44,651 nucleotides of DNA from Rathayibacter tritici. Lineage in GTDB: Bacteria > Actinomycetota > Actinomycetes > Actinomycetales > Microbacteriaceae. Below, one piece after another: positions 1,826 to 24,270 of this stretch. The notes below the pieces were generated by a model. That model ran no database searches. It was not told the origin of the DNA and was given only the letters and a program-made list of their open reading frames with translations. How positions within the stretch are numbered: position 1 is the stretch's first letter; every line of letters starts with the position of its first letter. A program made the position numbers and the translations under genes. The stretch spans positions 1 to 44,651 of the forward strand of contig NZ_PSWS01000080.1 of assembly GCF_002932875.1 (NCBI RefSeq), read 5' to 3'.

Positions 1826-1867
1826 CGCTTGATGGCGGCGTTCTCTGATCGCTCGATGGCGCCGTTC
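1826..1867 (+). repeat. Direct repeat at the tniB-distal end
   Basis: CGCTTGATGGCGGCGTTC (1826-1843) and CGCTCGATGGCGCCGTTC (1850-1867) match at 16 of 18 positions and start 24 bp apart. The second overlaps the tniB stop codon. Tn7/Tn402-type elements carry several transposase-binding repeats near each end, so these could mark what is left of the original end beyond tniB. This is inference. Confidence 0.35.
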
Positions 1868-4057: not shown

Positions 4058-4063
4058 CAGTCG

Positions 4064-4660: not shown

Positions 4661-4790
4661 GAGCCCATTCTGACTCGGAAACACCCTCTGCGACCCCTCC
4701 TGAGACGAAACACGGCAAGACGGCTTTCCGAGACAGACTCGCGCCCGAGATCCCGGCTCCAGCGGACCTCGAGTCGCATCTTGATCAGGT
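4661..4790 (-). promoter_or_regulatory. Candidate res site and promoter of the tni operon
   Basis: Read leftward, this leader contains repeated GTCTC elements (CTGTCTCGGAAAG, TTTCGTCTCAGGAGG) in the same spacing as at the left arm, then the ribosome site. It probably combines the res site with the operon promoter. Because the two res-like sites are inverted, recombination between them would invert the tniAB segment rather than delete it. Confidence 0.4.
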
Positions 4791-9498: not shown

Positions 9499-10884
9499 AT
9501 GCATCTCGTCGCCATCGGCGGCAGCGACGCGGGGATCTCCGCCGCGCTGCGCGCCCGCGAGCTCGACCCGTCCATCGACGTGACCGTCGTCGTCGCCGAC
9601 TCGTACCCGAACTTCTCCATCTGCGGGATCCCGTACTACTTCTCTCGCGAGGTGCAGCCGTGGCAGTCGCTCGCGCACCGCACCCACGCCGACCTTGAAG
9701 CCACCGGCATGACCCTGCGCCTGGACACCTTCGCGACCGACATCGACGTCGCCGGACAGCAGCTCACCGTCCGCACCCCCGACGGCTCCCTCGACCGGAT
9801 CGGGTACGACGAACTGATCGTCGGCACCGGCGCCCTCGCCTCCTCCGCCGGCATCGTCGGCGTGGACACGCTGGGGCCGGAGGACGGCGTGCACGTGCTG
9901 CACTCGATGGGCGACACCTTCGCGCTCGAGCGCTTCCTCGACAGCCGCGACCCGCAGACGGCGATCATCGTCGGCGCCGGCTACGTGGGCCTTGAGATGG
10001 CCGAAGCCCTCACCGTCCGCGGCCTCCAGGTCACTCAGCTCCAGCGCGGCCCGGAAGTGCTGTCCACCCTCGACCCCGAACTCGGCGCTCTCGTCCACAC
10101 CGAACTCGACCAGCACGGCGTCGAAGTCCTCACCCGCACCACGGTCGCCTCGATCGAGAAGACCGCGACCGGCCTCGCCGTGCACGCCGACCACGACGGC
10201 ACACCCCTCACCCGCACCGCCGACGTCGTCCTCCTCGTCGTCGGAGTGAAGCCGAACACGGACCTGCTCGCCCGCGCCGGGGCATCCCTCGGCGTCGGCC
10301 GCGCCGTCGTCGTGGACGAGGCCATGCGGACGGGCCTCCCGCACGTGTTCGCCGCGGGCGACGGAGTGACAACCCACCACCGCCTCCTCGGCACCACCTA
10401 CCTGCCGCTCGGCACAACGGCGCACAAGCAGGGTCGGGTCGCGGGAGAGAACGCCCTCGGCGGCGATGCCCGGTTCGCCGGCTCCGTCGGCACGCAGGTC
10501 GTAAAGGTCTTCGACCTCGTCGCCTCCCGCACCGGCCTCCGCGAGCACGAGGCCCTCGCCGCCGGCTTCGCCCCGGCGACGACGACCGCGGTCGCGGACG
10601 ACCACAAGCGCTACTACCCGGGCGCGCAGCCGATCACGATCCGCATCACCGGCGACACCCGCGACGGGCGCCTGCTCGGCGCTCAGCTCGTTGGCCGCCT
10701 CGGCACCGAGACGGCGAAGCGCGTCGACACCTACGCGACCGCCCTGTTCGCCGGGCTCACCGTCGAGCAAGTCTCCGACCTCGACCTCTCCTACACACCC
10801 CCGCTCGGCTCCCCGTGGGATGCCGTGCAGATCGCGACCCAGAGCTGGACCCGCACGACCACCGGAAGCAGCATCCCCGCATGA
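9499..10884 (+). CDS. CoA-disulfide-reductase-like FAD oxidoreductase
   Basis: This 461-residue FAD- and NAD(P)H-binding pyridine nucleotide-disulfide oxidoreductase is of the NADH oxidase/CoA disulfide reductase group. It has an FAD motif (GGSDAGISAALRAR), a redox-active Cys42 in FSICGIPYY, an NAD motif (IIVGAGYVGLEMAEAL) and a C-terminal dimerisation domain from about 330. It follows the aquaporin gene by 17 bp and overlaps arsC by 4 bp (ATGA), so it is part of the arsenic operon. A role in keeping a low-molecular-weight thiol or ArsC reduced is plausible. The substrate is not determined by the sequence. Confidence 0.8.
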   Translation: MHLVAIGGSDAGISAALRARELDPSIDVTVVVADSYPNFSICGIPYYFSREVQPWQSLAHRTHADLEATGMTLRLDTFATDIDVAGQQLTVRTPDGSLDRIGYDELIVGTGALASSAGIVGVDTLGPEDGVHVLHSMGDTFALERFLDSRDPQTAIIVGAGYVGLEMAEALTVRGLQVTQLQRGPEVLSTLDPELGALVHTELDQHGVEVLTRTTVASIEKTATGLAVHADHDGTPLTRTADVVLLVVGVKPNTDLLARAGASLGVGRAVVVDEAMRTGLPHVFAAGDGVTTHHRLLGTTYLPLGTTAHKQGRVAGENALGGDARFAGSVGTQVVKVFDLVASRTGLREHEALAAGFAPATTTAVADDHKRYYPGAQPITIRITGDTRDGRLLGAQLVGRLGTETAKRVDTYATALFAGLTVEQVSDLDLSYTPPLGSPWDAVQIATQSWTRTTTGSSIPA

Positions 10885-11273
10885 TTCAGAAGCCCACCGT
10901 TCTCTTCCTTTGCCAGCACAACGCCGGCCGCTCCCAACTCGGCGCAGGCCTGCTCGAAGTCCTCGCCGGTGACCGCTACACCGCCACCTCCGCCGGGCTC
11001 TCGCCCGCCGACGCCGTGAATCCCGCGATCGCCACGACCGTCGCCGAGCTCGGCCTCGACGTCAGCGACCGCACCCCCCGCGCCGTCACGGTCGAGGACC
11101 TCGAGAACGCGGATATCGTCGTCGCGATGAAGCCCGGCCTCGCGCTCCCCGCGACGCCGACCGGCCGGTTCCTGGAATGGAAGTTCCCCGACCCGACAGA
11201 CTGGAGCGCCGAGAACGTCCGCCCCCTCCGCGAGGCCGTCGCCGCTCGGATCCAGGCCGAACTCCTCGACTAG
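10881..11273 (+). CDS. arsC: Single-cysteine arsenate reductase
   Basis: This 130-residue arsenate reductase is related to low-molecular-weight phosphatases. The phosphate-binding loop CQHNAGRS carries nucleophile Cys11 and Arg17. It is the only cysteine in the protein, so the intramolecular disulfide cascade of thioredoxin-linked ArsC is impossible. This fits the actinobacterial mycothiol/mycoredoxin-dependent enzymes. It reduces arsenate to arsenite for exit through the aquaporin. The ATG lies within the end of the preceding gene (ATGA overlap). Confidence 0.88.
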   Translation: MIQKPTVLFLCQHNAGRSQLGAGLLEVLAGDRYTATSAGLSPADAVNPAIATTVAELGLDVSDRTPRAVTVEDLENADIVVAMKPGLALPATPTGRFLEWKFPDPTDWSAENVRPLREAVAARIQAELLD

Positions 11274-11325
11274 ACGCGACACGGAGCGGCACCAGAACGC
11301 TGCCACAGAGCGCCGAGACCCACAG

Positions 11326-11940
11326 CTGATCGGATACGCGCGCGTCTCGACCGACAAGCAGGACGCACACGCGCAGCGTGACTCGCTGCTCGCTGCGGGG
11401 GTGCCGGCGGACCGGATCTATGTCGACGCCGGCCTCACCGGGTCGAACCGCGAGCGGCCCGCGCTGCGCGAGGCCCTGGCGGCGTGCGACACCGGCTCGA
11501 CCCTGTTCGTGACGAAGCTTGACCGGCTTGCGCGCTCGATCACGGATGCGCGCGACATCGTGGACGAGCTGACGCGCAGGGGAGTGCGGTTGAACATCGG
11601 CGGGTCGCTGCACGACCCGACCGACCCGATGGGCCGGCTGCTGTTCAACGTGTTGGCGATGATCGCGGAGTTCGAGGGCGACCTCATTCGGGCGCGCACG
11701 AAGGAGGGGATGCGGGTCGCCAAGGCGAAGGGGCGCCTGCGCGGCCGGCAGCCGAAGCTCTCTCCGAAGATCGAGGCGCATCTGGTTGCGGAGTACCGGT
11801 CGGGCAACTACACCGTGGCGGAGCTGGCGGAGCAGTTCAGCGTGACCCGCTCGACGGTCTACCGGGCAGTTGAGCGCTCGAACATGACGGAGCTGCGCGC
11901 CGTCGACGTCACCCTCCCGCTCCCCGAGGGGGAGCGGTGA
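11326..11940 (+). CDS. Serine recombinase/resolvase without a standard start
   Basis: This is a serine recombinase of about 204 residues. The catalytic domain (LIGYARVSTDKQDAHAQ with the nucleophile Ser) is intact, followed by KLDRLARSITDARDIVDEL and a C-terminal helix-turn-helix (VAELAEQFSVTRSTVYRAV). The family start should lie at about 11326, where the codon is CTG. The frame is open upstream into arsC but contains no ATG, GTG or TTG before 11401, which lies beyond the catalytic Ser. Either CTG is used or the start was lost when this gene was joined to the ars operon. It is a close relative of the broken gene at 13781. Confidence 0.7.
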   Translation: MIGYARVSTDKQDAHAQRDSLLAAGVPADRIYVDAGLTGSNRERPALREALAACDTGSTLFVTKLDRLARSITDARDIVDELTRRGVRLNIGGSLHDPTDPMGRLLFNVLAMIAEFEGDLIRARTKEGMRVAKAKGRLRGRQPKLSPKIEAHLVAEYRSGNYTVAELAEQFSVTRSTVYRAVERSNMTELRAVDVTLPLPEGER

Positions 11941-12017
11941 AGCCCGAGTGCCTAAATGGTCACTTGATGTGGCGTGTCGGATCGCGTTAATCACAGCCAC
12001 AGCCCTACGTTAAACGC

Positions 12018-12260
12018 ATGGCTTCGACGCGGCGTCCCCGAGGAACGATGGTGGATCCCACCAACGTCGCCTGGACCGTCGAGCGCCAGGCTCGTGACGA
12101 TTTCAATGTCATGGCGCTGCGCGCGAACGTGTCGGCCGCGGTGTTCTTCGAGCGCCTGGTCGAGCACGTTCGGAGCGAGCTGACCGACGAGGGAATCCCT
12201 TCCTGGTGGCCTGCACAGCCGACTCTCCCCGACGAGGAGCTGCCCATCGACACCCGTTAA
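12018..12260 (+). CDS. Small ribbon-helix-helix-like plasmid protein
   Basis: This protein has up to 80 residues. After a basic N-terminus, a strand (NVAWTVERQ) and two helices (ARDDFNVMALRANVSAAVF, then FERLVEHVRSEL) suggest a ribbon-helix-helix DNA-binding fold like CopG. ATG 12018 has no ribosome site; ATG 12048 is preceded by GAGGAA and may be the real start, giving 70 residues. It lies upstream of a Rep-like gene, the same arrangement as at 39939-42404, so a role in copy control or partition is likely. The fold is judged by eye. Confidence 0.55.
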   Translation: MASTRRPRGTMVDPTNVAWTVERQARDDFNVMALRANVSAAVFFERLVEHVRSELTDEGIPSWWPAQPTLPDEELPIDTR

Positions 12261-12265
12261 CGCAT

Positions 12266-12307
12266 TAGGCCCGCCGCTGTCGCGACGGGCCTAGAAGCCT
12301 TGGCTTC
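12266..12307 (+). terminator. Two adjacent hairpins after the RHH-like gene
   Basis: TAGGCCCG (12266-12273) pairs with CGGGCCTA (12286-12293), and right after it GAAGCC (12294-12299) pairs with GGCTTC (12302-12307). They follow the stop codon by a few bases and would end the transcript. No U-tract follows, and the leader of the next gene (to 12444) has no clear iterons. Confidence 0.5.
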
Positions 12308-12444
12308 GCATCTCACTCAGTTTGGCGACTACCGAGATGTGAAGCAGTCCCACCCAAGAGCCGGTTACCAGCCGGGCCTTCGGTGTACCCCCCCGGAACG
12401 TACCCGGAAGGAATGTCCTTATCGTAACAGCGGAGCTCGTCTCC

Positions 12445-13725
12445 GTGCACGTCCGACCCACCCTTTTTTCAGGGGAGGAGTCTGCCGATCGTGCACCTGA
12501 GACGTCACAGGTGGCCGCGTCGTGGCCGAACAGTTCTCGAGCGGGCTCGTGGAGCCCCGCGCCGGCGCCGGGCGCATACGCGCCGCTGCCGTGCTGGACG
12601 TCGGGTGCCGCGTGGTTCGACGCGGTGATGGACGCTCTCGCGACGCCCGAGGGTGAGGCTGTGCGCGCGTCGGTCAAGGTCGCGCCGGACACGCTGCTGC
12701 GCGTGGCTCATGACGAGATGCGCTCGGCCGACGTCGGCACGGGACGCGGCGTGACGACGGCGCACCAGACGGTCGCTGACCGCCTGGGCATGTCCAAGAG
12801 GACGGTGCAGCGCGCGCGGGAGATCCTGCTGCTGCTGGGCTTCGCCGCGATCGTGATCAAGGGCCGCTACCTGTTCGGCGCTGAGCGGGTCGCAGCGCAG
12901 CTCGCACACGGTGGCCGCCAGTTGCGCATGGCCTCCACGAGGGCGCTCGTGATGCCCCGCGCGGCGCTCCCGAAGGCCCCGTGCGCGCCGCCGGCGCCGG
13001 CCTTTGCGCACACCGCGGACGCCGCGGAAATCACGAGGTCTGTGGAGAATGTCCACCTACCCCGTAGGCGCCCGCTTACATCTACAGCCCCAGTTAAAAG
13101 ACACTCACCAACGCGCGGTGAACCGCGCTCGGGAGCCGCTTCGCGGCAGCCGAGACGACGGAGTGACGCGAAACGCAGCTTGACAGGTCGGCCGGCGGTT
13201 CCGAGGTCGATCGAGTTGCAGCGCTTCGCTGCTGCGCTGGCCCAGCGCATCCCGTGGCTTGCCCGTGGAGTGCACATCGGGCACGTCGTCGGGATGCTGG
13301 ATCGCACCGGGATCGACGTCTCGGAGTGGAGCGTCGAGGGGCTGATGTTCGCCATGAACACCTGGCTGTCCCGCGATGGCCGCCAGGTCCCGGAGACGTT
13401 CACCAGTCGCAACGCGCTCGGGTTCTACGGGTGGGTCATCCGCCGCGTCATCACCGAGCACTCGCAGCTGGACACCGCGCGCCGGGTCGCTGCTACGCAG
13501 CGCGACGCCGACCGCGCTCGGGCCGCTGCTGAGCGCGCGGCCGAGGCCGCTCGCCTGGCGAGCATCGACAAGGACGAGGTGGACCGCATCATCGCTCAGA
13601 TGAAGACCGATCAGCGCGAGTTCGAGCGTGCCGCTCGTGAGCGCGAGATGGCCCGTAAGTGCGCCGCCGCCGAGGCCCGCGAGGAGCTGGCCGCGCGCGC
13701 TGCGGAGTTGCGCTCTCAGGGCTGA
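12445..13725 (+). CDS. Rep-like winged-helix plasmid protein
   Basis: This protein has up to 426 residues from GTG 12445. The true start may lie later, since the conserved-looking part begins near ASWPNSSRAGSW. It has a helix-turn-helix (TTAHQTVADRLGMSKRTVQRAREILLLLG, written here as the span about residues 103-131), a Pro/Arg/Ser-rich linker around 200-250, a second folded region (GVHIGHVVGMLDRTGIDVSEW) and a long charged coiled-coil tail rich in Ala, Arg and Glu. From memory it resembles proteins annotated as plasmid replication or HTH proteins in Micrococcales, but I see no catalytic motif. It could be an accessory replication or regulatory protein. Confidence 0.5.
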   Translation: MHVRPTLFSGEESADRAPETSQVAASWPNSSRAGSWSPAPAPGAYAPLPCWTSGAAWFDAVMDALATPEGEAVRASVKVAPDTLLRVAHDEMRSADVGTGRGVTTAHQTVADRLGMSKRTVQRAREILLLLGFAAIVIKGRYLFGAERVAAQLAHGGRQLRMASTRALVMPRAALPKAPCAPPAPAFAHTADAAEITRSVENVHLPRRRPLTSTAPVKRHSPTRGEPRSGAASRQPRRRSDAKRSLTGRPAVPRSIELQRFAAALAQRIPWLARGVHIGHVVGMLDRTGIDVSEWSVEGLMFAMNTWLSRDGRQVPETFTSRNALGFYGWVIRRVITEHSQLDTARRVAATQRDADRARAAAERAAEAARLASIDKDEVDRIIAQMKTDQREFERAAREREMARKCAAAEAREELAARAAELRSQG

Positions 13726-13780
13726 GCACGCACCGAGGCTATCCATCCGATAAGCGGCGCGATGCCGGAGACGGGCGACC

Positions 13781-14305
13781 GTGTCGATGCAGGGGCTGAC
13801 GGGGACGAATCGTGATCGGTCGGCGCTGCGCGAGGCGCTGGCGGCGTGCGACTTCGGCTCGACCCTGCTCGTCACGAAACTCGACCGGCTCGCGCGGTCG
13901 ATCACGGATGCGAGAGACATCAGCGACAAGCTGACCCGGCGCGGGGTGAAGCTCAGCGTCGGGGGAGCGGTGCACGACCCGAAGGATCCCGTGGGTCGGC
14001 TCCTGTTCAACGTCCTCGCGATCGTCGACGAGTTCGAGGAAGACCTCATCCGCGCTCGCACGCGGGAAGGGATGAAGATCGCGAAGGCGAAGGGGAAGCT
14101 CCGCGGGCGCAAGCCCACGCTCTCACCGAAGATCGAGGCGCACCTGGTCGCCGAGCACCGCGCGGGCAACTACACGGTCGGTGAGCTAGCGGCCGAGTTC
14201 AACGTCGCCCGGTCGACCGTCTACCGAGCGGTCCAGCGGGCGGACGCGCGCGCCGCTGCGTCGGTCGACGTCGCTCTCGCGCTGCCGACCGAGGAGGCGC
14301 CGTGA
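13781..14305 (+). pseudogene. Serine recombinase lacking its catalytic start
   Basis: About 170 residues match the protein at 11326 from its GLTG segment onward (KLDRLARSITDARDISDKL, RTREGMKIAKAKGKLRGR, then the C-terminal helix-turn-helix). The N-terminal part with the catalytic Ser is missing. The few codons before it (GACCGTGTCGATGCAGGG, reading DRVDAG) match the expected sequence in another frame, so there is also a frameshift near 13785. It may still make a DNA-binding fragment but cannot recombine DNA. It is in the same orientation as the 11326 gene. Confidence 0.75.
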
Positions 14306-14618
14306 CTGACGCGACACGTGTGCTGATGGCTGATGAGCCCCTGTAGCGTCAGCCGGTCGTTGGGGGCTTCCCAGCGCCTCTATGCGTAAAGCGAGTGGGG
14401 AGTCGCTCTCGGCTACTGCCGCGCTGCGCGCCCCTTGCCATCGAGCAGTGTTCGAGCGTTCTCGACGGCAGGTGGTTGCAGGCGCGAGGCCACGCGAAAT
14501 CCGCCACAGCGCCAGTTCGCCACAGACCGGTGTACCAAAACTCTGACCCGAAACCATTTCGTGCCGTAACTTCTTGCGTACCGTTTTCGGGATACTGTTG
14601 TCAGGGCGGAGGAGTCTG
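14306..14618 (+). other. 313-bp non-coding region before the recombinase-antitoxin gene
   Basis: I see no gene here. GGCTGA (14328-14333) and TCAGCC (14349-14354) may end the preceding transcript. The last 60 bases (14555-14610) are less GC-rich and contain similar short segments (CGTGCCGTAACT, TGCGTACCG, GGGATACTG). These could be the promoter and the recombination site of the following recombinase, but I cannot assign exact elements. Confidence 0.35.
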
Positions 14619-15563
14619 ATGAACAGCATCGTTGGGTATGCGCGCGTTTCGCGGCGCGACCAGAATCTAGCGGCGCAGGAGGCTGACCTCCACGCTGCCG
14701 GGGCAGTGCGGGTCTTCGTCGACCAGGGAGAAGCGAGCCGGATGGCGGATCGACCGCAGTGGTTGGCCTGCCTGGACTTCCTCCGTGACGGCGACACGTT
14801 GCTCGTGAGCCGCCTCGACCGGCTGGGTGGGACGGAGCGGATCGTGATCGGGGCGATCAACGACCTCGAGCGCCGGGGAGTGAACATCAAGAGCCTCACG
14901 GAACCGATGATCGACACGACGTCCCCGATGGGGCGGTCGCTGTTCAGCATTGTCGCCGTGTTCGCGCAGCTGCGCGTGGATACCATCCGGGAGAACACCC
15001 GGCTCGGCCTGGATCAGGCTCGCGCCCAAGGCCGTGTCGGCGGCCGGCCCACGGTAATGACATCGGCACGTCTGCGCGAGGCGCGACGCATGCGCGACGC
15101 CGACCACAGCATCGCCCAGATCGCCGACGTCCTCGGAGTCGGTAAGTCCTCCGTGGCCCGCGCCCTCGCCAAGGTGCCGGCGGCACCGGCGGACACTGAA
15201 CGACGCGTCTTCTACCGCGATGTGAAGCCGTACGACGCCCCCGGATCGTTGGATGACCTCGCAGGGCCGTCGACAGGGACCATCGAGCTCCCCCACCGTG
15301 TGTACTGGGGGCCGGAGCCCACCGTAGATCTCGGTTCCCCGAGCGGCGTCGTGAAGGCGTACCAGGCTGTTCTCAACGAAGGGAGCGCCATAGATCAGAC
15401 AGCACTCCTGAACCGAGACCTCCTGCTCACGATCTGGTCGGAGCTGGCTCTCCCCGACCGGGTGCGCCTACTCTGGGAAGACCGCTTCCCGGAGCTTCTC
15501 GCCCACACAAGGCTGCCCGCTGCTGCCCTCACGGCGCCCGCATCAGAAGGGGTAGGTCGGTGA
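14619..15563 (+). CDS. Serine recombinase fused to an antitoxin-like domain
   Basis: This 314-residue protein starts at ATG 14619 behind GGAGGAG. Residues 1-140 are a serine recombinase catalytic domain (VGYARVSRRDQ with Ser11, SRLDRLGGTERIVIGAIN). Residues about 140-185 are a resolvase helix-turn-helix (HSIAQIADVLGVGKSSVARAL). From about 190 to 300 there is an extra region not found in resolvases (LPHRVYWGPEPTVDL, VVKAYQAVLNEGSA, LNRDLLLTIWSELALPDRV). As I recall, this resembles small proteins encoded just upstream of AbiEii-type nucleotidyltransferase toxins in actinobacteria. Such a toxin gene follows here. The likely reading is an antitoxin fused to a recombinase, able to bind DNA for both functions. 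Confidence 0.7.
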   Translation: MNSIVGYARVSRRDQNLAAQEADLHAAGAVRVFVDQGEASRMADRPQWLACLDFLRDGDTLLVSRLDRLGGTERIVIGAINDLERRGVNIKSLTEPMIDTTSPMGRSLFSIVAVFAQLRVDTIRENTRLGLDQARAQGRVGGRPTVMTSARLREARRMRDADHSIAQIADVLGVGKSSVARALAKVPAAPADTERRVFYRDVKPYDAPGSLDDLAGPSTGTIELPHRVYWGPEPTVDLGSPSGVVKAYQAVLNEGSAIDQTALLNRDLLLTIWSELALPDRVRLLWEDRFPELLAHTRLPAAALTAPASEGVGR

Positions 15564-15640
15564 TCGACGCGGCCGGCTTCTGTGGTTCAGGACACATCAT
15601 CGAGATGAGCGCAAGCGGTCCGCTCTTCGCGGGCGCAACA

Positions 15641-15662
15641 CTGCCTGCTAGGCGGCAGGCAG
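15641..15662 (+). promoter_or_regulatory. Hairpin between antitoxin-like and toxin genes
   Basis: CTGCCTGC (15641-15648) pairs perfectly with GCAGGCAG (15655-15662) over a 6-nt loop, 15 nt before the AbiEii-like start. It has no U-tract. It may partly terminate transcription or slow translation of the toxin, keeping it below the antitoxin. Confidence 0.45.
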
Positions 15663-15677
15663 AGGAACGAGGCTGAC

Positions 15678-16382
15678 ATGGGCAGCCGGAACGAGGAACT
15701 GCAGCGAGAGATCACCCGTGTTGCGCTCGAAGCGCTCGAGGGCACCGGATTCGCTCTCGCCGGCTCCGGTGCGATCCGCGAGCACGGCGTCATTAACCGT
15801 CTGACGGAGGACGTCGACCTCTTCACCTCGAACACTGACGTCGCTAACTTCCGCCGCGCGGTCGACCAGGTGAGCGCGGGCCTCCGCGATCACGGCTACA
15901 CGCTCGACGAGGACCGCTCCACCGAGCAGTTCGCGCGCCTCCACGTACGAACCGCGTCCGGTGAGCAGGTCGACGTCGATATGGGGATGGACTGGCGCGA
16001 CACCGAACCGGTTCGCCTGCAGGTCGGACCTGTCCTCAGCCTCGACGACGCGATCGGGAACAAGGTCAGCGCCCTCTACAGCCGTGCCGAAGCACGCGAC
16101 TTCCTCGATGTCGATTCGATCCGCTCCTCCGGTCACTTCACCGACCAGCAGCTCCTCACCGCCGCTCGCGAACGCGACCCCGGATTCGAGCCCACGATGT
16201 TCGCGCAGCAACTCGACCGCGCCGCCCGACTCACCTCCGACCGGGTCTCGGAGTACGGCATCAACGACACGCAACTCGAAGGCATCCAGCGCCGCTTCGA
16301 GAGCTGGGCGACGCAGATCCGACGTGACCTCCGTCTCGAGCAGATTGATCATCTCGGACACCAGCGCGGGCTCTCCTGCTGA
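15678..16382 (+). CDS. AbiEii-type nucleotidyltransferase (toxin)
   Basis: This 234-residue nucleotidyltransferase of the AbiEii/AbiGii type has the polymerase-beta-like motif GSGAIREHGV (29-38) and then RLTEDVDLFT, with the metal-binding pair Asp45 and Asp47. A third acidic position lies in VDVDMGMDW. The C-terminal half is helical (DAIGNKVSALYSRAEARDFLDV). AbiEii toxins add nucleotides to tRNA or other targets and stall growth, aborting phage infection or stabilising plasmids. It is paired with the recombinase-antitoxin fusion 114 bp upstream. Start at ATG 15678 behind GAGGAACGAGG. Confidence 0.82.
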   Translation: MGSRNEELQREITRVALEALEGTGFALAGSGAIREHGVINRLTEDVDLFTSNTDVANFRRAVDQVSAGLRDHGYTLDEDRSTEQFARLHVRTASGEQVDVDMGMDWRDTEPVRLQVGPVLSLDDAIGNKVSALYSRAEARDFLDVDSIRSSGHFTDQQLLTAARERDPGFEPTMFAQQLDRAARLTSDRVSEYGINDTQLEGIQRRFESWATQIRRDLRLEQIDHLGHQRGLSC

Positions 16383-16465
16383 GCGACTACGAGTGCGAAG
16401 CGAGAGAGCCGGCGAGCCTTCCGCTCACGCGGGATCCACATCGCCGGCCGGTCCCTGGCCAGAGC

Positions 16466-16945
16466 ATGACCTCCGACCGATTCTGGTCCCGCGTCATCAA
16501 GGGCCCCGATCCCTCGGACTGCTGGATCTGGACCGGCGCTATCGGGGACGACGGCTACGGCCGCTTCTGGACACGCACCGTCGACGGCGGGCAGCAGGTC
16601 CTCCGGCCTCAGAGGTACGCGTTCGAGCAGATCACTGGCCGCGTCCTCGAGCGCTCAGTGATGGTGCTGCACTGGTGCGACGTGCCGCTGTGCGTCCACG
16701 CTGAGGTCGTCGAGGCGACGTCGCATCTGCGCGAGGGTGACGCTCGCGGAAACATGATCGACCGTTCCCAGCGCGGCCGCTACGCCGGCCCCACCACGGC
16801 CCTTGGCTCCGTCGGGGCCGCCCGGCGTGAGCGAGCAGCGCGATCGCGCGCCGTGCGCGCGCTCGTGCTCGAGCGCGGTTACGACGCAGCAGAAATACGA
16901 AAGGTCCTCGCCGGTACCGACGAGGACCTTCCCGCGCTCTTCTGA
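16466..16945 (+). CDS. HNH_3-type nuclease-like protein
   Basis: This 159-residue protein is related to phage and homing HNH nucleases. It shows CWIWTGAIGDDGYGRF (19-34), then VLHWCDVPLCVH with His69, Cys71 and Cys76, then HLREGDARGNMIDRSQRGR with His87 and Asn96. That is the usual layout of the His-Me finger group with a GYG segment. The C-terminal tail after 110 is helical. It follows the toxin gene by 83 bp in the same direction. It may be a solitary homing-type nuclease or part of the defence module; the substrate is unknown. Confidence 0.7.
   Translation: MTSDRFWSRVIKGPDPSDCWIWTGAIGDDGYGRFWTRTVDGGQQVLRPQRYAFEQITGRVLERSVMVLHWCDVPLCVHAEVVEATSHLREGDARGNMIDRSQRGRYAGPTTALGSVGAARRERAARSRAVRALVLERGYDAAEIRKVLAGTDEDLPALF
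16901..16930 (-). terminator. Perfect hairpin inside the 3' end of the HNH gene
   Basis: AAGGTCCTCG (16901-16910) pairs perfectly with CGAGGACCTT (16921-16930) over a 10-nt loop. On the minus strand it is followed by TCGTATTTC, so it most likely terminates the leftward genes from 17579, which end at 16962. It lies within the coding sequence of the rightward HNH gene. Confidence 0.55.
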
Positions 16946-16961
16946 GCGACTTCTCCGAGGC

Positions 16962-17147
16962 TCAGCGATCCGCTGTGACGAGGTCGGCGTGGCGGACCCG
17001 ATGGTCGTCGCGATCGGGATCGGTGAGCCAAGGCATGGTGAGCCAGGGTATGTCTCCGCGTACTGCGATCCAGTACCGGTCCGGGCGATCGATCTCGACC
17101 TTCGACGCATCCAAAGGCCACGACAGAGGTGTCTGCTGGCTGATCAT
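16962..17147 (-). CDS. Small hypothetical protein
   Basis: This 61-residue protein begins MISQQTPLSWPLDASKVEID and is rich in Trp, Pro, Asp and Arg. Its ATG overlaps the stop of the gene before it by 4 bp (ATGA), so the two are translated together. I see no signal peptide or membrane segment and do not recognise a family. Its place next to the oriT side of the relaxase suggests an accessory of mobilisation. Confidence 0.5.
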   Translation of the reverse strand: MISQQTPLSWPLDASKVEIDRPDRYWIAVRGDIPWLTMPWLTDPDRDDHRVRHADLVTADR

Positions 17148-17579
17148 GTGGCGTCTTCCTCACGCCACTCGTGCCCTGACATGTCGGGCTGCATTCCCGG
17201 TTCGGCCAGCTCGGGTGCGTCCGAGACGGTGTCGACGGTGTTGCCCGCCGCGCTTCGGAGTGCGGCGCGGACTGCGCTGGCGGGCAGGTCGAGGCGCTGG
17301 GCTATCTCGGCCGCTGACACGCTCAGCGAGGCCATGGCCCGCGATCGCAGCGTTCACCTCATCGCGCGCGGCTGTTGCGCGCTCCGCCGCCCGCTCGCGC
17401 AGCTGCGTGATCGCTTCTTCGAGGTCGGCGTCGATCGCGTCGATCTTGTCGGTGGCGGTGAAGTAGTCCACCGCGAAGCCCTCAAGCTTTTCCTCGCGTT
17501 CGCGGAACGCCGCGGCACGCTCTCGCGCCTTCTTTCGCGCGTCAATCTGGCCAGCAGTTTTCGTTCGTCGCTCAGCCAT
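17144..17579 (-). pseudogene. Helical DNA-binding-type protein, apparently frameshifted
   Basis: The frame from ATG 17577-17579 (MAERRTKTAGQIDARKKARE) encodes a charged coiled-coil with TATDKIDAIDADLEEAITQL and reaches AARDEVNAAIAG near 17335. There the coding signal moves to another frame, which continues with MASLSVSAAEIAQRLDLPAS, a helix-turn-helix, to the stop at 17144. If joined, the product is about 145 residues, a coiled-coil plus HTH protein. If not, the first frame runs to 17160 as an Arg-rich tail. A sequencing error, a true mutation or two overlapping genes are all possible. It is divergent from the relaxase. Confidence 0.5.
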
Positions 17580-18164
17580 CAGGCCGGTCCTTCCCACACA
17601 ACACCTAACGCCCACACCGAGACGTGCGCGCGGAAACCCTGACCTGCCCAGCACCGTAGCAGGCGGCCTCCAGCCGCAGCCGTACGGTGCACCACCGGGT
17701 GGTGCCGCGCGCTGCGCTCCCCTGCGACGTATCTGGCCGTCACGACGATGTGGGCGACGTCGATGATGCGCGCCTCACTCGCCCCCCGGCCTAACGCTCG
17801 CGCTTCCAACGGGCAGGCGGCTGGTGTCTCCGACGGTAGCAGCGCGGTGCGCTGGGATGGAGTTGCCTGCGGCAGCTGGTCTGGCTGGCCGCACCCTGCG
17901 GGTGCTGGTGTCGCGGTGCGGCCCCACTCGCTCCCCGTCCGTGGACGGCATCCGCTGCGCTTCTCCCGCCCACCGCCGGGGGCTCGTTCCTGGCCGCACC
18001 GGCGACGCCGCGCTCACGGTGTTCGCTTTCTGGCGTCGCCTCCGCGCGGATCCCTGCGGGTTCCGGCCAGACCCGTCTTCCTCGTTCCTCGTCAGACCGT
18101 TCCCTCATTCTTCGGTCATCAGGTCGTCATGCACTATTAGTGAATTGGGTAGCCTGTGGGGGTG
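17580..18164 (+). other. Non-coding region upstream of the relaxase, candidate oriT
   Basis: This stretch of 585 bp carries no convincing gene. It contains a perfect palindrome CACCACCGGGTGGTG (17690-17704, 7-bp arms, 1-nt centre) and an inverted pair CGGTGCGGCC/GGCCGCACCG about 75 bp apart (near 17910 and 17990). Just before the relaxase start lies a less GC-rich patch with CACTATTAGTG (18131-18141). MobF relaxases usually have their oriT next to their own gene, and such inverted repeats mark relaxase-binding sites, so the nic site probably lies here. The exact site is not identified. Confidence 0.45.
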
Positions 18165-21100
18165 ATGACCTTGCACAAGCTCAGCGCAGGGGATGGTTAC
18201 GCCTACTACACGTCCGAGGTCGCGACCGCGGACGTGCGCCGCGAGAAGGGTCGCGAGCTGGGTGACTACTACACCGCTGACGGCAACCCGGCCGGTGTCT
18301 GGCTCGGTGGAGGGCTGGCCACGCTCGGCGAGACCGTGACCACCCGCGACGTGGAGGGCCGTGCAGCGTTCGCCGTTCACGAGTCTCGGCGGGTGTCTGG
18401 CGAGGTCACCGAGGCGCAGATGAAGGCCCTGTTCGGTGAGGGGTTGCACCCGAACGCGGACGCTCTGACGGCCGCCAGCATCGACGTCGGCGCTTCGGCC
18501 GAGTCGGCGCTGCAAGCGGTGAAGCTGGGGCGCAGGTTCCCTCGCTACGAGGCGAAGGACACCGAGCTGGGCGCTCGTATCCGTGACGCGTATGCGGCGT
18601 TCGAACGTGTCGAGCATCGCGCCCCTGACCTGGAAGAGCGTCGCCGGATCCGGGTGCGCGAGGGCGCGCAGGTATTCCGGGAGCAGAAGGGCCGAGAGCC
18701 GTTCGACAAGGAGGAGCTGGGCCGGTTCATCACCGCGGCACAGCGTCCGCAGCAGGCCGCTGTCGCCGGGTACGACTTGGTCTTCTCGCCCGCGAAGTCG
18801 GTGTCGACGCTGTGGGCGCTGGGTGATGACGCGACCCGTCACGCGATCGAAGCCGCGCATGAGACGGCCATCGCGGAGAGCGTCGTCTACCTCGAACAGC
18901 ATGCCGTCGCGACCCGGACCGGCAGTCAAGGGGCCGCTCAGGACGACGTTCGCGGCGGGCTCATCGCGACCCGGTTCCGGCATTACGACTCCCGCAACGG
19001 CGACCCTCAGCTGCACGATCACGTGGTGGTGTCAAACAAGGTCCGCGGCGTCGACGGCAGCTGGCGCACCCTCGACGGGGCGCTGCTGCACAAGATGAAC
19101 GTTCCGACGTCCGAGTTCTACAACCAGCGCGTCGCTCACCACATCCGGGAGGCGCTCGGGGTCGCGTTCGAGCCGCACACGGTGCGTGCAGGGAAGCGTC
19201 CGGTGATGGAGATCGCGGGCATCGACCCGGACCTGATGAAGGACTTCTCCTCGCGTTCCACCGACATCCGCCGGGCGGTGAAGGCGTTGGAGAGGGACTA
19301 CCGGGCCGCGCACGGCCGAGGCCCGGATGCCGCCGCCCGCATCGCGATCGCGCAGCAGGCGACCCTGGAAACCCGGCCCGTGAAGGAGCACGCACGGTCC
19401 CTGCGCGAGCTGCGCACCCTGTGGCGATCGCGCGCGGTCGGTGTGGCCGGTGAGGTGACGGTGAACAATCTCCTCGCCCACGCACGGCAGGTCGCCGCCG
19501 ACGCTCGGGACGGTTCCACGCCCCTGCTGCCGGTGGATGTGAACGCGGCCGCGGCGAGCGTGGTGGGGGTCGTGTCCGAGCATCATGCGGTCTGGGGCGC
19601 GAACGTGATCGAGGCGGAAGCGCGCCGGTGGGCGCAGGAGCAGGCCCGCGCGGACGTGACGGAGGAGACGGTGCAGGCGGTCGTGACCGCGGCGCTGCGC
19701 GAGCATTCCGTGTCGATCACTCCCCCGCCGGCGCATGCCGCGTTCGCGCCGTTGACCCGCGCGGACGGTTCGAGCATCTACGAACACCGAGGCCGCGAAC
19801 TGTTCACCTCCCGCGCGGTGATCGACGCGGAAGATCAGCTGCTGACCGCGGCCCGCAGTACTGGCGTCCCACCGGTCGCGGTGGAGCATTTCGCCGCCGC
19901 GGTCCTCGCGCACGAGGGTCCCCTCGATGATGGGCAGCGCGATCTCGCCCGCGAGTTCGCCTGCTCCGACCGGCAGCTCGTCGTCGGTGTCGGCCCTGCC
20001 GGTGCCGGTAAGACCACGTCGCTGAACCTCGCGGCCCGCGCGATCGAGTCCGCCGGCGGCCGCATGATCGGCGTCGCCCCCTCAGCGGCGGCGGCGGCGG
20101 TGTTGAAGGCCGACGTCGGGATCGACACGCACACCCTGCATGGTTTCCTGCTGCAGCTGGAGCGCGGCGAGGAGTCCGCGCAACTGCGCCCGGGCGACGT
20201 CGTCGTGGTCGATGAGGCCGGCATGGCCGGCACCGTGCGCTTGGCGATGATCACCGAACAGGCCACCAGGGCCGGCGCGACAGTGCGGCTGATCGGTGAT
20301 GACCGGCAGCTGTCCGCGGTGGAGGCCGGCGGCGCGCTGCGGCTAATCGAGAACGAGGCCGGCGCGATCCGGTTGGAGACGGTGCACCGCTTCCGCAACG
20401 CTGACGGCACCGCGAACGAGGACGAAGCCGCCGCCTCGCTGCTGCTGCGCGACGCCGAGCAGGCGGCCGGCGGTGACGCTTTCACCTGGTACCGGCAGCA
20501 GGATCGCGTCACGGCCGTGACCGCCGAGTCCGCAACCGACGCGGTCTTCGCGGCGTGGCAAGCCGATACCAGCGCCGGGAAGACCAGCCTCATGATGGCG
20601 TCCACGAACGCGACCGTCGCGGACCTCAACGCCCGCGCGCAAGCGTTCCGCATCAGCACCGGCGACGTCCGCGGCCGCCGCACCGCGGCACTGCGCGACG
20701 GTCTCGCCGCGCACGTCGGCGACGTCGTTGTCACCCGCAGCAACACCAGCACGCTGCGCTACAACGCACGTCGCGATCGCGTCCTCAACAACGACGTCTG
20801 GGACGTGAAACGGGTCCACCCGGATGGCGCCCTCACCGTCCGCAATCGCCGCAACGGCGGCCAGACAAGACTCCCGGCCGAGTACGTGAAGGCGCATACC
20901 GAACTCGGTTACGCCGCGACCGTGCACCGCGCGCAGGGCATGACTGTCGACACCGCGCATGCTCTGGCCGACCGCAGGACCGGCCGCGAAGCGGCCTATG
21001 TCGCCCTCACCCGTGGCCGCTCCCACAATCACCTCTACCTCGCGCTCGAGCCCGGCGAGTCCGTGGACGAGGGCCTGGCCGCGATCGCCGGGAACGTCGA

Positions 21101-22880
21101 CCGCGCCTTGACGGCCACCGAAACCATCCGCGCCGAACAGACTCGGACCGCCGACCTGGGCACTCTCGCCGCGCAGTTCCGCGACGTCCACGACCGCGCC
21201 GACGACATCCGGATCGCCACGGCGATCGACGTCACTCTCGGCGGCCGCACTCTGGACGAGTTGCGGCAGAGCGGCACCTGGGCGGACGTGAAATCCGCGC
21301 TCGTCGACGCCGAGCGGGCCGGTTTCACCCTCGAGAAAGCCGTCGCCACAGCCTGGCAGGACGGCAACGGCCTGGACGGCGCCGATGACCGCGGCGCGCT
21401 CATCGCCTGGCGGATCCGTGACACCAGCCGCTGGGGGCGCGTGCACGCCGACGTCGACACGATCACTGGCCGGCCCCTCGCCGGGATGAGTGATGAGGCG
21501 CTGCAGCGTGCCCTCGAGCACGCGACCCGGACCCGTTGCTTGGCGGAGACCCAGCTGGAGATCGGGGCCAACGCGGACACTCACTGGCGTGAACGCCGCT
21601 TCGGGCACCTCTCCGACCTGACCCTCGCCGGCCGCGTCGCCCAGCAGCGCGTCACCGTCGCGCAGCCCGTCACCGACCGGCAACAAGCGCGCCAAGATTT
21701 GTGGCTGCTCGGCGAGCTCAACGCCGAGAACCGCGCCCGCAAAGCGCTACCCGTCTCCGTCCGGGTGCAGGAGAACCGCGAACGCGGCGCCGCCACAGTG
21801 CGTCCCGACCGTGGCGTCGACCCCGCTTCCGCGACCCCCGGAGCGATCGCGGCGGTCTGGAACGCGCGGACCCTGGAGAACCAGCTCGCGGCCGAGACAC
21901 GTCTGCGCGCCAGGCTTCCCGACACCCCGAGTCGTCCCGTCGCGGATCGTCCGCGGATCCCGGAGTGGATCGCCGACGCCCGCCTGCTCACCGACTCCCG
22001 GGTGCGCGAGGACTGGCGCGAGCACCTCACCGAGCGATACGAGCACCTCGCGAGCCAGTACACGCTCCGCGGCGAACAGCTCGCTGCCGCACCGCCGGCG
22101 TGGGCGGTGGAGCATCTCGGGCCGGTCCCCGCCGGCGACTCCGCGATGCGCCCGGAATGGATCGCGCTCGCGGCCGAGATCGACCACTACCGAGCGGTGA
22201 GCCACACCCTCGACACCGACTCGACCCTTCTGGGTGGTGCCGGGCAGGACACCGTGCTCGCGCAGGCACTCACCGGCCGAGCCGACGAGCTGCGCCTCGC
22301 GAACCCCACCCCGGGCCCGGTCCCCGTCACGGCGCCGGTGGGAGCGGCGGGCCCGCGGACTGTGACCGCGGAGGAGTTCGCGGCGGCCGTCGCCGCCGAA
22401 GCCTTCGCCGCGGGCATGAGCGTCGCTGAGTACGAGCAGCTGGTCGAGTCGTTCCGTCAGACCGGCGAGCCGCTCCCGGCCCAGAACGTGTACTCACGCC
22501 TCTGCGTCGACGAGCTTGAGCCGCTCGCGGCCCAGGAGCCGGCCGGCGTCCTCACCGACACCCTGCCTGAGCCGGAGGGCGCACGCCTGGTGTCGGCGGA
22601 GGAGTTCGCTGCTGCCGTCGCCGCGGAAGCTGCGGACGCGGGGATGACGGTCGCCGAGTACGAGCAGCTGGTCGAGTCGTTCCGTCAGACCGGGCAGCCG
22701 CTGCCCGCGGAGAACGTGTACGCACGCCTGCGCCTCGCCGCCGACGACGACTCCGCCCCGACCGCCGACGCGACCCAGACACGACCTCAGGCGACACGGC
22801 ATCCGGCGTTCCGCGCGGACCCCGCGTCCGCAGCACCAACGCCGCAGGAGGAGGCGCGGCGTCGCGGGCTCGGACATTGA
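18165..22880 (+). CDS. MobF relaxase-helicase (TrwC/TraI type)
   Basis: This 1571-residue conjugative relaxase-helicase nicks oriT, stays bound to the 5' end and unwinds the strand for transfer. The N-terminal relaxase has clustered tyrosines Tyr12, Tyr14 and Tyr15 (GYAYYTSEV) and a metal-binding histidine motif (PQLHDHVVV, about residue 285). The helicase has Walker A GPAGAGKTT near 610 and Walker B VVVDEAGMAG near 682. The C-terminus carries two copies of a 49-residue repeat. ATG 18165 is preferred over GTG 18156 because the family start is close to the first tyrosines. It converges with the T4SS operon on a long hairpin. Confidence 0.93.
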   Translation: MTLHKLSAGDGYAYYTSEVATADVRREKGRELGDYYTADGNPAGVWLGGGLATLGETVTTRDVEGRAAFAVHESRRVSGEVTEAQMKALFGEGLHPNADALTAASIDVGASAESALQAVKLGRRFPRYEAKDTELGARIRDAYAAFERVEHRAPDLEERRRIRVREGAQVFREQKGREPFDKEELGRFITAAQRPQQAAVAGYDLVFSPAKSVSTLWALGDDATRHAIEAAHETAIAESVVYLEQHAVATRTGSQGAAQDDVRGGLIATRFRHYDSRNGDPQLHDHVVVSNKVRGVDGSWRTLDGALLHKMNVPTSEFYNQRVAHHIREALGVAFEPHTVRAGKRPVMEIAGIDPDLMKDFSSRSTDIRRAVKALERDYRAAHGRGPDAAARIAIAQQATLETRPVKEHARSLRELRTLWRSRAVGVAGEVTVNNLLAHARQVAADARDGSTPLLPVDVNAAAASVVGVVSEHHAVWGANVIEAEARRWAQEQARADVTEETVQAVVTAALREHSVSITPPPAHAAFAPLTRADGSSIYEHRGRELFTSRAVIDAEDQLLTAARSTGVPPVAVEHFAAAVLAHEGPLDDGQRDLAREFACSDRQLVVGVGPAGAGKTTSLNLAARAIESAGGRMIGVAPSAAAAAVLKADVGIDTHTLHGFLLQLERGEESAQLRPGDVVVVDEAGMAGTVRLAMITEQATRAGATVRLIGDDRQLSAVEAGGALRLIENEAGAIRLETVHRFRNADGTANEDEAAASLLLRDAEQAAGGDAFTWYRQQDRVTAVTAESATDAVFAAWQADTSAGKTSLMMASTNATVADLNARAQAFRISTGDVRGRRTAALRDGLAAHVGDVVVTRSNTSTLRYNARRDRVLNNDVWDVKRVHPDGALTVRNRRNGGQTRLPAEYVKAHTELGYAATVHRAQGMTVDTAHALADRRTGREAAYVALTRGRSHNHLYLALEPGESVDEGLAAIAGNVDRALTATETIRAEQTRTADLGTLAAQFRDVHDRADDIRIATAIDVTLGGRTLDELRQSGTWADVKSALVDAERAGFTLEKAVATAWQDGNGLDGADDRGALIAWRIRDTSRWGRVHADVDTITGRPLAGMSDEALQRALEHATRTRCLAETQLEIGANADTHWRERRFGHLSDLTLAGRVAQQRVTVAQPVTDRQQARQDLWLLGELNAENRARKALPVSVRVQENRERGAATVRPDRGVDPASATPGAIAAVWNARTLENQLAAETRLRARLPDTPSRPVADRPRIPEWIADARLLTDSRVREDWREHLTERYEHLASQYTLRGEQLAAAPPAWAVEHLGPVPAGDSAMRPEWIALAAEIDHYRAVSHTLDTDSTLLGGAGQDTVLAQALTGRADELRLANPTPGPVPVTAPVGAAGPRTVTAEEFAAAVAAEAFAAGMSVAEYEQLVESFRQTGEPLPAQNVYSRLCVDELEPLAAQEPAGVLTDTLPEPEGARLVSAEEFAAAVAAEAADAGMTVAEYEQLVESFRQTGQPLPAENVYARLRLAADDDSAPTADATQTRPQATRHPAFRADPASAAPTPQEEARRRGLGH
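22356..22503 (+). repeat. Relaxase C-terminal repeat, copy 1
   Basis: This encodes 49 residues beginning RTVTAEEFAAAVAAEAFAAG and ending near NVYSRL. It is very similar to copy 2, which starts 228 bp later. Each copy predicts two or three helices (EEFAAAVAAEA, VAEYEQLVESFRQTG) and may contact the coupling protein or oligomerise. Confidence 0.8.
22584..22731 (+). repeat. Relaxase C-terminal repeat, copy 2
   Basis: This encodes 49 residues beginning RLVSAEEFAAAVAAEAADAG and ending near NVYARL. The central VAEYEQLVESFRQTG is identical to copy 1. Differences between copies are mostly conservative, which suggests both are under selection. Confidence 0.8.
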
Positions 22881-22932
22881 GCGCACGGGCCGGGACGGCC
22901 ACGGTCCGTTCTCGGCGGGATGCATGTGAGGT

Positions 22933-22983
22933 GTGACAGGGGAGGGGAGGTCGGCGGATAGCCGACCTCCCCTCCCCTGTCAC
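22933..22983. terminator. Perfect 23-bp-stem hairpin between converging transcripts
   Basis: The arm from GTGACAGGGGAGG (22933-22955) is exactly complementary to 22961-22983, around a 5-nt loop (GGATA). It lies 53 nt after the relaxase stop and 5 nt before the stop of the leftward operon's last gene. It has no U-tract on either side, but its length and place fit a two-way terminator that keeps the two conjugation transcripts apart. Confidence 0.8.
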
Positions 22984-22987
22984 GGCG

Positions 22988-23785
22988 TCAGTGGTGGCGT
23001 GTGTGGGTGGCGTGCTGGGTGATCTCCTGGGCGGGGGCGTACCCTGTCGCGGCCGGTGCGGTCGTGGTGGTGCGCCGGCCGACGCGGGTGACCGGGTGGT
23101 GGTAGGACTGCGCGACCACTGCCGCTGACTCGATCGCTTCGTCCGGGACCTTGCCCTGCATCGTCGCCGCCCACGCGGTGTGCTGTTCGGCGGCATCGTA
23201 GGCGCCGTCGGCCGCTGCTCGGTGACTCTCGGCACCGTCCTGCACGCGATCGGCGGCCGCGGCCGTCTCCTGCCCGTCCGTGGTGTCGCCAGCACGCAGG
23301 TCGGCGGCGTCGTTGTCGAGCGCATCGGCGACGCGGTCGTGACGGTCGCTGTCGGCGAGGTGGTCACGGCCGCGGTCGCGTTCGACGTCGGCGGCGCGCT
23401 CAGCCTGGATGCGGGCGACTTCGCCGGCGACGTAGGCGGCGTCGGCCGCCGGCGCGGTCGTGTCGATGCCGTACCGGTTCAGGACCTGTTCGCGGATCGT
23501 TGAGGCCGCGATCGCCGCGGCGGGCTCTGTCCCCGCCCACGCGATCGCGGCTTCCTGCACCCGGCCGATGTCGGCCGGACCGGCGTGGTCCCACCACTGC
23601 TTGTCCTTGACGGGGATGAGAGCGGCGAGAGCTTCCGCGCGGTCTGTTCGAGCGGCATTGACCTGGTCGTATCCGCCTCGTTCGAGCGCGCGTGACAGCG
23701 TGTGCCCGAGTTGGGTGGCGATCGCGATCGTGGAGCGGAGGGTGCTGTCGAGTGCGTCGTCGACGCCGTCGTGGTTGAGGTCCAT
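22988..23785 (-). CDS. Conjugation-operon hypothetical protein, helical
   Basis: This 265-residue acidic protein is the last gene of the leftward T4SS operon. It begins MDLNHDGVDDALDSTLRSTI, has an apparent small globular part (WWDHAGPADIGRVQEAAIAW, ASTIREQVLNRYGID) and a long Ala/Asp/Arg-rich coiled-coil (about 120-200). The end is low-complexity (TTTTAPAATGYAP). There is no signal peptide or membrane segment. I do not recognise a family. Its position beside the relaxase suggests it could act at the relaxosome. Confidence 0.65.
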   Translation of the reverse strand: MDLNHDGVDDALDSTLRSTIAIATQLGHTLSRALERGGYDQVNAARTDRAEALAALIPVKDKQWWDHAGPADIGRVQEAAIAWAGTEPAAAIAASTIREQVLNRYGIDTTAPAADAAYVAGEVARIQAERAADVERDRGRDHLADSDRHDRVADALDNDAADLRAGDTTDGQETAAAADRVQDGAESHRAAADGAYDAAEQHTAWAATMQGKVPDEAIESAAVVAQSYHHPVTRVGRRTTTTAPAATGYAPAQEITQHATHTRHH

Positions 23786-23811
23786 CGGGGTCTTTCTTCC
23801 TGGAGGGGTGG

Positions 23812-24270
23812 TTAGTAGTCGCGGACGATGACGGGTGCCGGGTACTCGCTGACCGGGATCGGCCCTTGCCGATCGGTGGGGAAGAAGCCGGCCGGGGGCC
23901 GCTTGTAGGGCAGCAGTCCACCTCGATCGTTGGTGTCGATGCTGGTGGCGAAGGGGCCGTCAGTGGACAGGAGCATGCGCATCTGCGGGTCGACGTGAAC
24001 GAGCCACCAGGCGCTCAGATCCAGCGGTGCTTCGCGGGCGGCTTCCCACAGATGCCAGATCGCGGTCAGCCGGGCTCGGGCTTCCGAGTTCGACCACCAG
24101 GTCGCGGACCAGCGGTGCGGGGCATGGTCTTTCTCGGATCCCACTTTGCGGCGGTAGGAGGGCCACAGGAACTTGCGGAAGAACTCATCGACCGATCCGT
24201 AGTACAGCAGCGACTGCTGCTCGTCCTCGCCCGCCGCCGCTGTTGCCGGGAGGGTGGTGGTGTCGCTCAT
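23812..24270 (-). CDS. DUF4913-type protein
   Basis: This 152-residue protein matches the DUF4913 pattern as I recall it: a Trp-rich core with WSATWWSNSEARARLTAIWH, then LWEAAREAPLDLSAWWLVHV and DPQMRMLLSTDGPF. The family is found almost only in actinobacterial conjugative plasmids and integrative elements, with no known function. The ATG overlaps the end of the coupling-protein gene by 4 bp (ATGA), so the two are coupled in translation. It may assist DNA docking to the coupling protein. Confidence 0.75.
   Translation of the reverse strand: MSDTTTLPATAAAGEDEQQSLLYYGSVDEFFRKFLWPSYRRKVGSEKDHAPHRWSATWWSNSEARARLTAIWHLWEAAREAPLDLSAWWLVHVDPQMRMLLSTDGPFATSIDTNDRGGLLPYKRPPAGFFPTDRQGPIPVSEYPAPVIVRDY

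Follow-up and report, generated by a model that had tools for sequence, protein, structure and literature searches.

The 44,651-nucleotide stretch of Rathayibacter tritici DNA analyzed here (the window) contains a gene in which a complete small serine recombinase is joined in frame to a C-terminal part of ~105 residues, domain X (residues ~196–293), with a gene for an AbiEii-type nucleotidyltransferase toxin downstream (Table 1). We consider it reasonably probable, from sequence comparison, that this gene encodes a chimeric antitoxin composed of a DNA-binding serine recombinase and X, and that it forms an operon-like unit with its cognate toxin gene, the fusion protein binding a res-like element ahead of the gene, repressing the operon and neutralizing the toxin. 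The same order, recombinase–X and then toxin, is found in Agreia (L009), Amnibacterium flavum (L010), a genome bin of the Microbacteriaceae (L058) and a further member of that family (L092). The recurrence of the fusion in these four loci, together with the pairing of X with AbiEii, is not a matter of chance.

Table 1. Features of the fusion locus (coordinates in the window)
Feature	Position	Strand	Basis
Four-box res-like element, putative, 57 bp	14534..14590	+	28/32 box positions; just before fusion gene
Element boxes	A 14534–14541, B 14547–14554, C 14563–14570, D (inverted) 14583–14590
GGAGGAG, probable ribosome binding site of fusion gene	14608..14614	+	sequence
Recombinase–X (probable antitoxin) fusion gene, 314 aa	14619..15563	+	open frame; same fusion in L009, L010, L058, L092
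Serine recombinase catalytic domain, Ser11 kept	14619..15041	+	PF00239 1e-32, residues 4–139
Recombinase helix-turn-helix	15042..15173	+	PF02796 4.8e-5, residues 142–185
Domain X, probable antitoxin domain	15204..15497	+	X profile E 3e-37; 31–66% identity to 42 X domains from other loci
114-bp gap, fusion stop to toxin start	15564..15677	+	sequence
AbiEii-type nucleotidyltransferase toxin gene, 234 aa	15678..16382	+	PF08843 4e-12; invariant columns

The fusion gene and its toxin partner

The fusion protein is matched by both the Resolvase and the HTH_7 models of Pfam, the latter at its cut-off, and keeps Y7, R9, S11, D35, R45, D67 and R68. With both domains and, in gamma-delta numbering, the catalytic Ser, R8, R45 and R68, its N-terminal part is a small serine recombinase. 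The first-pass annotation had described a complete resolvase with Ser11 and a helix-turn-helix, extended by a C-terminal part that resolvases lack; the Pfam domains and catalytic residues agree with this description, and the extension proves to be a domain with relatives of its own. Separate production of X from an internal start was considered and rejected: internal start codons differ among the five window-type genes, and that of L058 has none in the stretch examined.

Positions 10000–24000 find their best DNA match in a plasmid of Rathayibacter festucae, which covers 27% of them at 87%, and the window encodes a MobF relaxase and conjugative coupling genes. Among the frames scanned, a subset of all frames in the window, no transposase family rose above its Pfam cut-off. 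Other resolvase sequences are also present. Two inverted repeats of 704 bp (1015–1718 and 4033–4736), 87% alike and 2.3 kb apart, each cover a resolvase/invertase domain; the two domains are 96% identical at the protein level, and the repeats may bound an invertible or composite segment. A resolvase frame at 11323–11874 has its conserved N-terminus and catalytic Ser before the first ATG/GTG/TTG (11401), consistent with an unusual start or a damaged gene; the R. festucae plasmid carries an annotated recombinase gene in the matching stretch. An N-terminally shortened resolvase immediately ahead of the fusion (13754–14302) is 75% identical to the 11323 frame over 156 columns.

The downstream protein has the conserved acidic and basic positions of the AbiEii family, and its match to PF08843 (4e-12) identifies the toxin gene of an AbiE-like (AbiEii/DUF1814) system; an AbiEii toxin beginning 114 bp downstream had been proposed earlier, and both the family and the distances are correct. 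Compared with solved structures, the toxin gave no match below E 0.026. The fusion stop overlaps the toxin start in L009, L010, L058 and L092, in contrast to the 114-bp gap in the window. An attenuator hairpin in this gap was considered and discarded, the RNA fold being not unusual (z −0.98). The toxin gene of L058 is broken (138 codons), and that of L092 loses its frame after 56 codons; hence, decay may be under way at two of the five window-type loci. MenT toxins of the nucleotidyltransferase family are described, in the passages cited, as modifying tRNA acceptor stems (PMC10435456), and the AbiEii toxin may, by family, do likewise.

What is domain X? Searches of Pfam, NCBIfam, PADLOC and PHROGs with the window protein gave no family for its X, and 43 aligned X domains were each compared with Pfam and PADLOC, again without a hit at E ≤ 0.05. 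Pfam includes AbiEi models; because no Pfam model matches any of the 43 at this threshold, X is, by the Pfam test, not an AbiEi-type upstream antitoxin. Solved structures gave chance-level matches only (E 1.1 or worse). By tblastn, relatives of X occur in 85 of 72,556 plasmid records, mainly from Streptomyces and other Actinomycetota, and there is no match in 50,697 phage records. In viral contigs, none of 16 pattern matches to X and none of 73 to the toxin was confirmed, and no copy of the res-like element was found. Although none of these four family libraries has a name for X, a genome scan (E ≤ 1e-10) found it in 61 of the 394 genomes sampled from the class.

X lies directly before AbiEii, on the same strand and within 600 bp, at 76 of the 80 toxin-found loci retained from 228 confirmed toxin relatives in the genome scan; the exceptions are L060, L066, L077 and L078. 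Conversely, AbiEii lies directly downstream at 26 of the 30 X-found loci fetched, a set that includes the Agreia locus again (L136); there is no downstream toxin in L151, L157 and L159, and the contig of L158 ends at X. For plasmid X regions from 12 of the 85 records, an annotated AbiEii gene comes next in 8 (L003–L008, L167, L169). This near-obligate place before AbiEii makes X probably the cognate antitoxin of the toxin, and it upholds the earlier impression that the C-terminal part resembles the proteins encoded before AbiEii. X is likewise no normal resolvase extension of a kind that occurs away from nucleotidyltransferase genes, though a few X do lack AbiEii: L001 and L002 by annotation and profile, L170 by annotation only, and L151, L157 and L159 by profile. 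The X genes of L001, L002, L170 and L159, with no AbiEii found adjacent, are perhaps lone antitoxins. In plasmid region L166, an 852-bp gene sits at the toxin's place after X and is followed by a resolvase. X is also fused to other domains, namely Phd/YefM (L065, 5e-8), VbhA (L011, 2e-13) and HTH_17 (L007, 7e-8). The L065 protein (2884–3483) joins a Phd/YefM antitoxin domain to X ahead of AbiEii, and the L011 protein (2950–3498), with a VbhA antitoxin domain and X, looks like two antitoxins in one.

Recurrence, origin and the four-box element

How widespread is the fusion? Window-type fusions were found in 4 of 398 sampled Microbacteriaceae genomes. Of 396 genomes from the order to which Agreia belongs, 8 match the fusion profile at E ≤ 1e-80, the sole full-length fusion being that of Agreia itself, which is also the only match at this threshold among 396 genomes of the phylum sample; few candidates per genome were scored in these scans, so distant fusions could be missed. 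In the order of Trebonia, 131 of 345 genomes match at E ≤ 1e-30, with at least one full-length fusion among the matches listed (Trebonia kvetii, L066). Its recombinase belongs to another clade, its X to another lineage, and its toxin lies 2 kb away; judged by these placements, the Trebonia fusion is independent in origin of those in Microbacteriaceae. None of 25 matching plasmid records covers 80% of the fusion in one place. A TTTTCCGTACAC-type motif lies on the minus strand just before the start of the Trebonia fusion gene (L066 380–391), and such a motif is also found, on the gene's own strand, ahead of 5 of 19 solo resolvases of that order (L110, L111, L112, L114, L117).

The relatives of the window recombinase suggest where it came from. 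A resolvase frame lies within 2.5 kb 3′ of X at 13 of the 80 toxin loci (broken in L021, L044 and L059; distant in L028). Taking all loci together, X–AbiEii is followed directly by an intact resolvase in 13 cases, 8 inside the window-type clade (L005, L006, L011, L012, L015, L027, L029, L129) and 5 outside it (L003, L013, L022, L023, L025). The clade (SH-aLRT 99) consists of these 8, the five window-type fusions and 21 others, which have no adjoining X–AbiEii and some of which may end other toxin–antitoxin (TA) operons. On plasmids, the recombinase genes closest to that of the window are overlapped or touched by genes such as those for Fic, VbhA, zeta and AbiEii; 11 plasmid regions with close relatives contain Fic in 9 cases (8 with VbhA), zeta in 1 and no annotated TA genes in 1. 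Given these adjoining TA genes, gene order often places a member of the clade at the end of a plasmid TA operon. The window departs from this arrangement: rather than being a separate last gene, the recombinase is fused before X, and thus comes first.

The toxins of the window, L009, L010 and L092 form one clade (SH-aLRT 97; L058, with its toxin cut short, was excluded from the tree). For the recombinase parts of the five fusions, by contrast, descent from one origin was considered and rejected by the AU test (p 1e-4), with L058 placed apart in the recombinase tree and the long branch of L092 in play; the history of these parts is therefore not simple.

The element upstream of the fusion gene has boxes A, B and C in direct orientation and D inverted, with spacings of 13, 16 and 20. 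A and B are direct repeats 13 bp apart, and C and D together make a 28-bp, site-I-like inverted repeat, the central dinucleotides of which are, by eye, not conserved. Crossover sites are inverted repeats of about 28 bp. The window element scores 28/32, whereas 785 upstream sequences generated by first-order Markov shuffling reach 20 at best, and the A+B+D pattern with up to three mismatches has a single match in the window (two mismatches) and none in 100 dinucleotide shuffles. We infer that the element is a recombination site or an operator. No sigma-70-type promoter was found in 14300–15700.

Scores of at least 24 within 600 bp upstream were seen for 3 of 6 fusions, 4 of 8 X–AbiEii–resolvase operons with a resolvase of the same clade and 5 of 20 other clade resolvases. 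Such scores were absent from the 5 X–AbiEii–resolvase operons with non-clade resolvases and from 19 solo resolvases belonging to a different order, and they appeared at 2 of the 99 X loci to which no clade resolvase was assigned (L051, and L028, which has a clade resolvase farther on); the consensus was drawn partly from these same loci. When whole loci are viewed, several further clade resolvases have the element farther upstream (e.g., L094, L096, L098). A scan of 15 plasmid loci (up to 700 bp, spacing 19–21) included 11 outside the consensus loci, and the element scored 24–32 in 8 of these, lying 98–105 bp ahead of the first gene of a TA–resolvase operon in 7 and 253 bp ahead of a solo resolvase in L175; the lower scores among the new loci were 22 (L173), 20 (L174, with C and D perfect) and 20 (L178). 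Loci seen earlier scored 20 (L005), 24 (L006), 18 (L166) and 19 (L167). The element of L171, L172 and L180 is directly preceded by the end of another recombinase gene and could belong to either. On the whole, the element appears to go with the recombinase clade and to head the operon even where the resolvase is last, although in several groups at least half of the clade loci have a weak copy or none. The window shares this feature of TA–resolvase operons.

Nine plasmid Fic operons end in a resolvase of the same kind (L171, L172, L174, L176–L181), 8 of them with VbhA, and 7 of the 9 have the element at a score of at least 24. L006 has a tandem operon (1710–4708) of VbhA, an unknown gene, Fic, X, AbiEii and resolvase, with an element-like match (24/32, spacing 19) 100 bp ahead of it.

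Proposed mechanism and alternative readings

How would a chimeric antitoxin of this kind work? A dimer of the fusion protein would bind the element through its recombinase half and, once bound, would repress its own promoter and operon, while X would bind and inactivate the AbiEii toxin, a division of labour that two-domain AbiEi antitoxins achieve with other domains. In other lineages, catalysis would have decayed while DNA binding and X stayed, the recombinase thus becoming the DNA-binding domain of the antitoxin.

In gamma-delta numbering, all 61 unfused resolvases with the sites covered keep the equivalents of Y6, R8, S10, D36, R45, D67 and R68, as do the fusions of the window, L010 and L058. 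L009 has Leu in place of R8, L092 has lost R8, S10, D67 and R68, and the Trebonia fusion has lost S10, R45 and R68. Catalytic loss therefore affects 3 of 6 fused and 0 of 61 unfused recombinases (Fisher p 4e-4, uncorrected for kinship and with an unfused set that passed score cut-offs favouring intact resolvases). In pairs with L092, dN is 0.41–0.48 for the catalytic part, 0.20–0.30 for the helix-turn-helix and 0.16–0.30 for X, compared with 0.15–0.27 for the catalytic part in pairs without L092; this pattern fits a recombinase kept for DNA binding, although the damaged toxin genes of L058 and L092 speak against it. The accessory boxes A and B are present in the window, L010 and L058, and only C and D are kept in L009 and L092. 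With catalysis lost in three of six fusions, two of them without accessory boxes, the recombinase seems to be turning into the DNA-binding domain of an antitoxin. Has this already happened in every fusion, the window included, leaving the protein an autoregulated antitoxin only? The residues lost in L009, L092 and L066 and the boxes missing from L009 and L092 favour such a reading, as does the R71 position, where every window-type fusion has a residue other than Arg (Gly in the window, L010 and L058, Lys in L009 and Glu in L092). However, every unfused member of the clade has that Gly too and retains the remaining residues, and plasmids often carry close relatives; the full set of residues and recognizable accessory boxes in the window, L010 and L058 also speak against it. 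General inactivity is a real possibility that we nonetheless rate as less likely than not. Because the catalytic residues and recognizable copies of all four boxes are kept, the window fusion may still resolve plasmid multimers. A bolder version makes the protein resolvase, operon repressor and antitoxin at once, with the multimer state of the plasmid setting toxin control: res sites in plasmid dimers would bind and synapse the fusion protein, and synapsis would draw antitoxin away or alter promoter occupancy until the multimers were resolved. If true, the plasmid would possess an inbuilt checkpoint that couples addiction to the resolution of multimers, but we regard this as unlikely; toxin control is more likely linked through promoter binding than through recombination as such. 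The first-pass annotation had tied toxin control to recombinase level or to DNA inversion or resolution. The link between resolution and addiction gains from the res-like element and the resolvase-ended TA operons, whereas inversion fares poorly: the window has one copy of the element, and hence no inverted pair of that site. Small serine recombinases often carry the name DNA invertase, and the best PHROGs family of the window recombinase is so named (phrog_125, 9e-49); that the recombinase flips a segment to switch the toxin is nevertheless, with a single element copy, extremely unlikely.

Two further alternatives to a chimeric antitoxin concern X and the fusion as a whole. X could be an accessory part, such as a regulator or a dimerization module, that travels with AbiEii and is no antitoxin, a view to which its lack of a known fold or characterized relative and the six loci with X and no AbiEii lend something. 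We think this decidedly unlikely in view of the near-obligate pairing, the first-gene position of X, the overlap of its gene end with the toxin gene start in L003, L005, L008 and four fusions, and its fusion to the known antitoxin domains Phd/YefM and VbhA. The fusion could also be a functionless, decaying accident of rearrangement, as its rarity among Microbacteriaceae and the broken toxin genes of L058 and L092 might suggest, yet the frame is full-length in five lineages, in which X is 65–78% identical (59–66% in pairs with L058), dN is below dS for the helix-turn-helix and X wherever dS is computable (many dS values being near saturation), and the fusion arose again in Trebonia; an accident is accordingly highly improbable.

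The wider meaning of a chimeric antitoxin would be threefold. First, a series running from TA–resolvase operon to fusion to catalytically decayed fusion would show an enzyme of mobile DNA becoming the DNA-binding half of an antitoxin. Second, the resolvase-ended TA operons, with their interchangeable toxins (AbiEii, Fic/VbhA, zeta) and the element they have in common, have the look of a plasmid stability module of general use in Actinomycetota. Third, a fusion that recurs in a few related bacteria would be a natural test of plasmid toxin control tied to recombination machinery.

Relation to known systems

No recombinase–antitoxin fusion was evident, by title or abstract opening, among the papers listed in searches of the open-licence PubMed Central literature, in agreement with the first-pass annotation, which knew of no described system of this form. 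The cited part of a review of mobile-element recruitment likewise contains no such case (PMC8987985). The closest relatives by toxin are AbiE and MenAT, in which, as here, a DUF1814/AbiEii toxin has a paired antitoxin, and MenA antitoxins are stated to be diverse (PMC7319586, PMC10435456, PMC11375011). The system described here differs in that X matches no Pfam model and the DNA-binding half is a whole serine recombinase. The toxin of the ccd operon is unrelated to AbiEii. In gene content, the ccd operon of the F plasmid is similar, with a TA pair and a resolvase gene in one plasmid operon, and the passage cited states no fusion (PMC7157771).

Tn3-family transposons also have TA genes beside a resolvase gene and res (Lima-Mendez et al. 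2020, PMC7157771). There, according to the passages cited, the TA genes are separate, lie mostly across res from the resolvase gene and encode ParE, PIN, PIN_3, Gp49 or HEPN toxins, and control of TA expression by the resolvase has been proposed and called an open question (PMC7157771). Here, unlike in those transposons, the genes are either fused or arranged in a co-directional operon that ends with the resolvase. With the fusion and a res-like element at the head of its own operon, the question of resolvase control could be tested with one protein and one promoter.

For the element, the nearest parallel is site II of Sin resH, where head-to-tail recombinase-binding motifs lie beside the crossover site as A and B lie beside C and D (PMC2428073); the likeness is one of box arrangement only, not of sequence or spacing, and the element here is a putative binding site. 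For the fate of the recombinase, the parallel is MrpR of prophage SP-beta, a protein with a recombinase fold that has lost recombinase function and is now a repressor (PMC10516654). MrpR differs in having a tyrosine recombinase fold, and the passages cited describe no antitoxin domain in it (PMC10516654), whereas the fusions described here pair a serine recombinase with a probable antitoxin domain.
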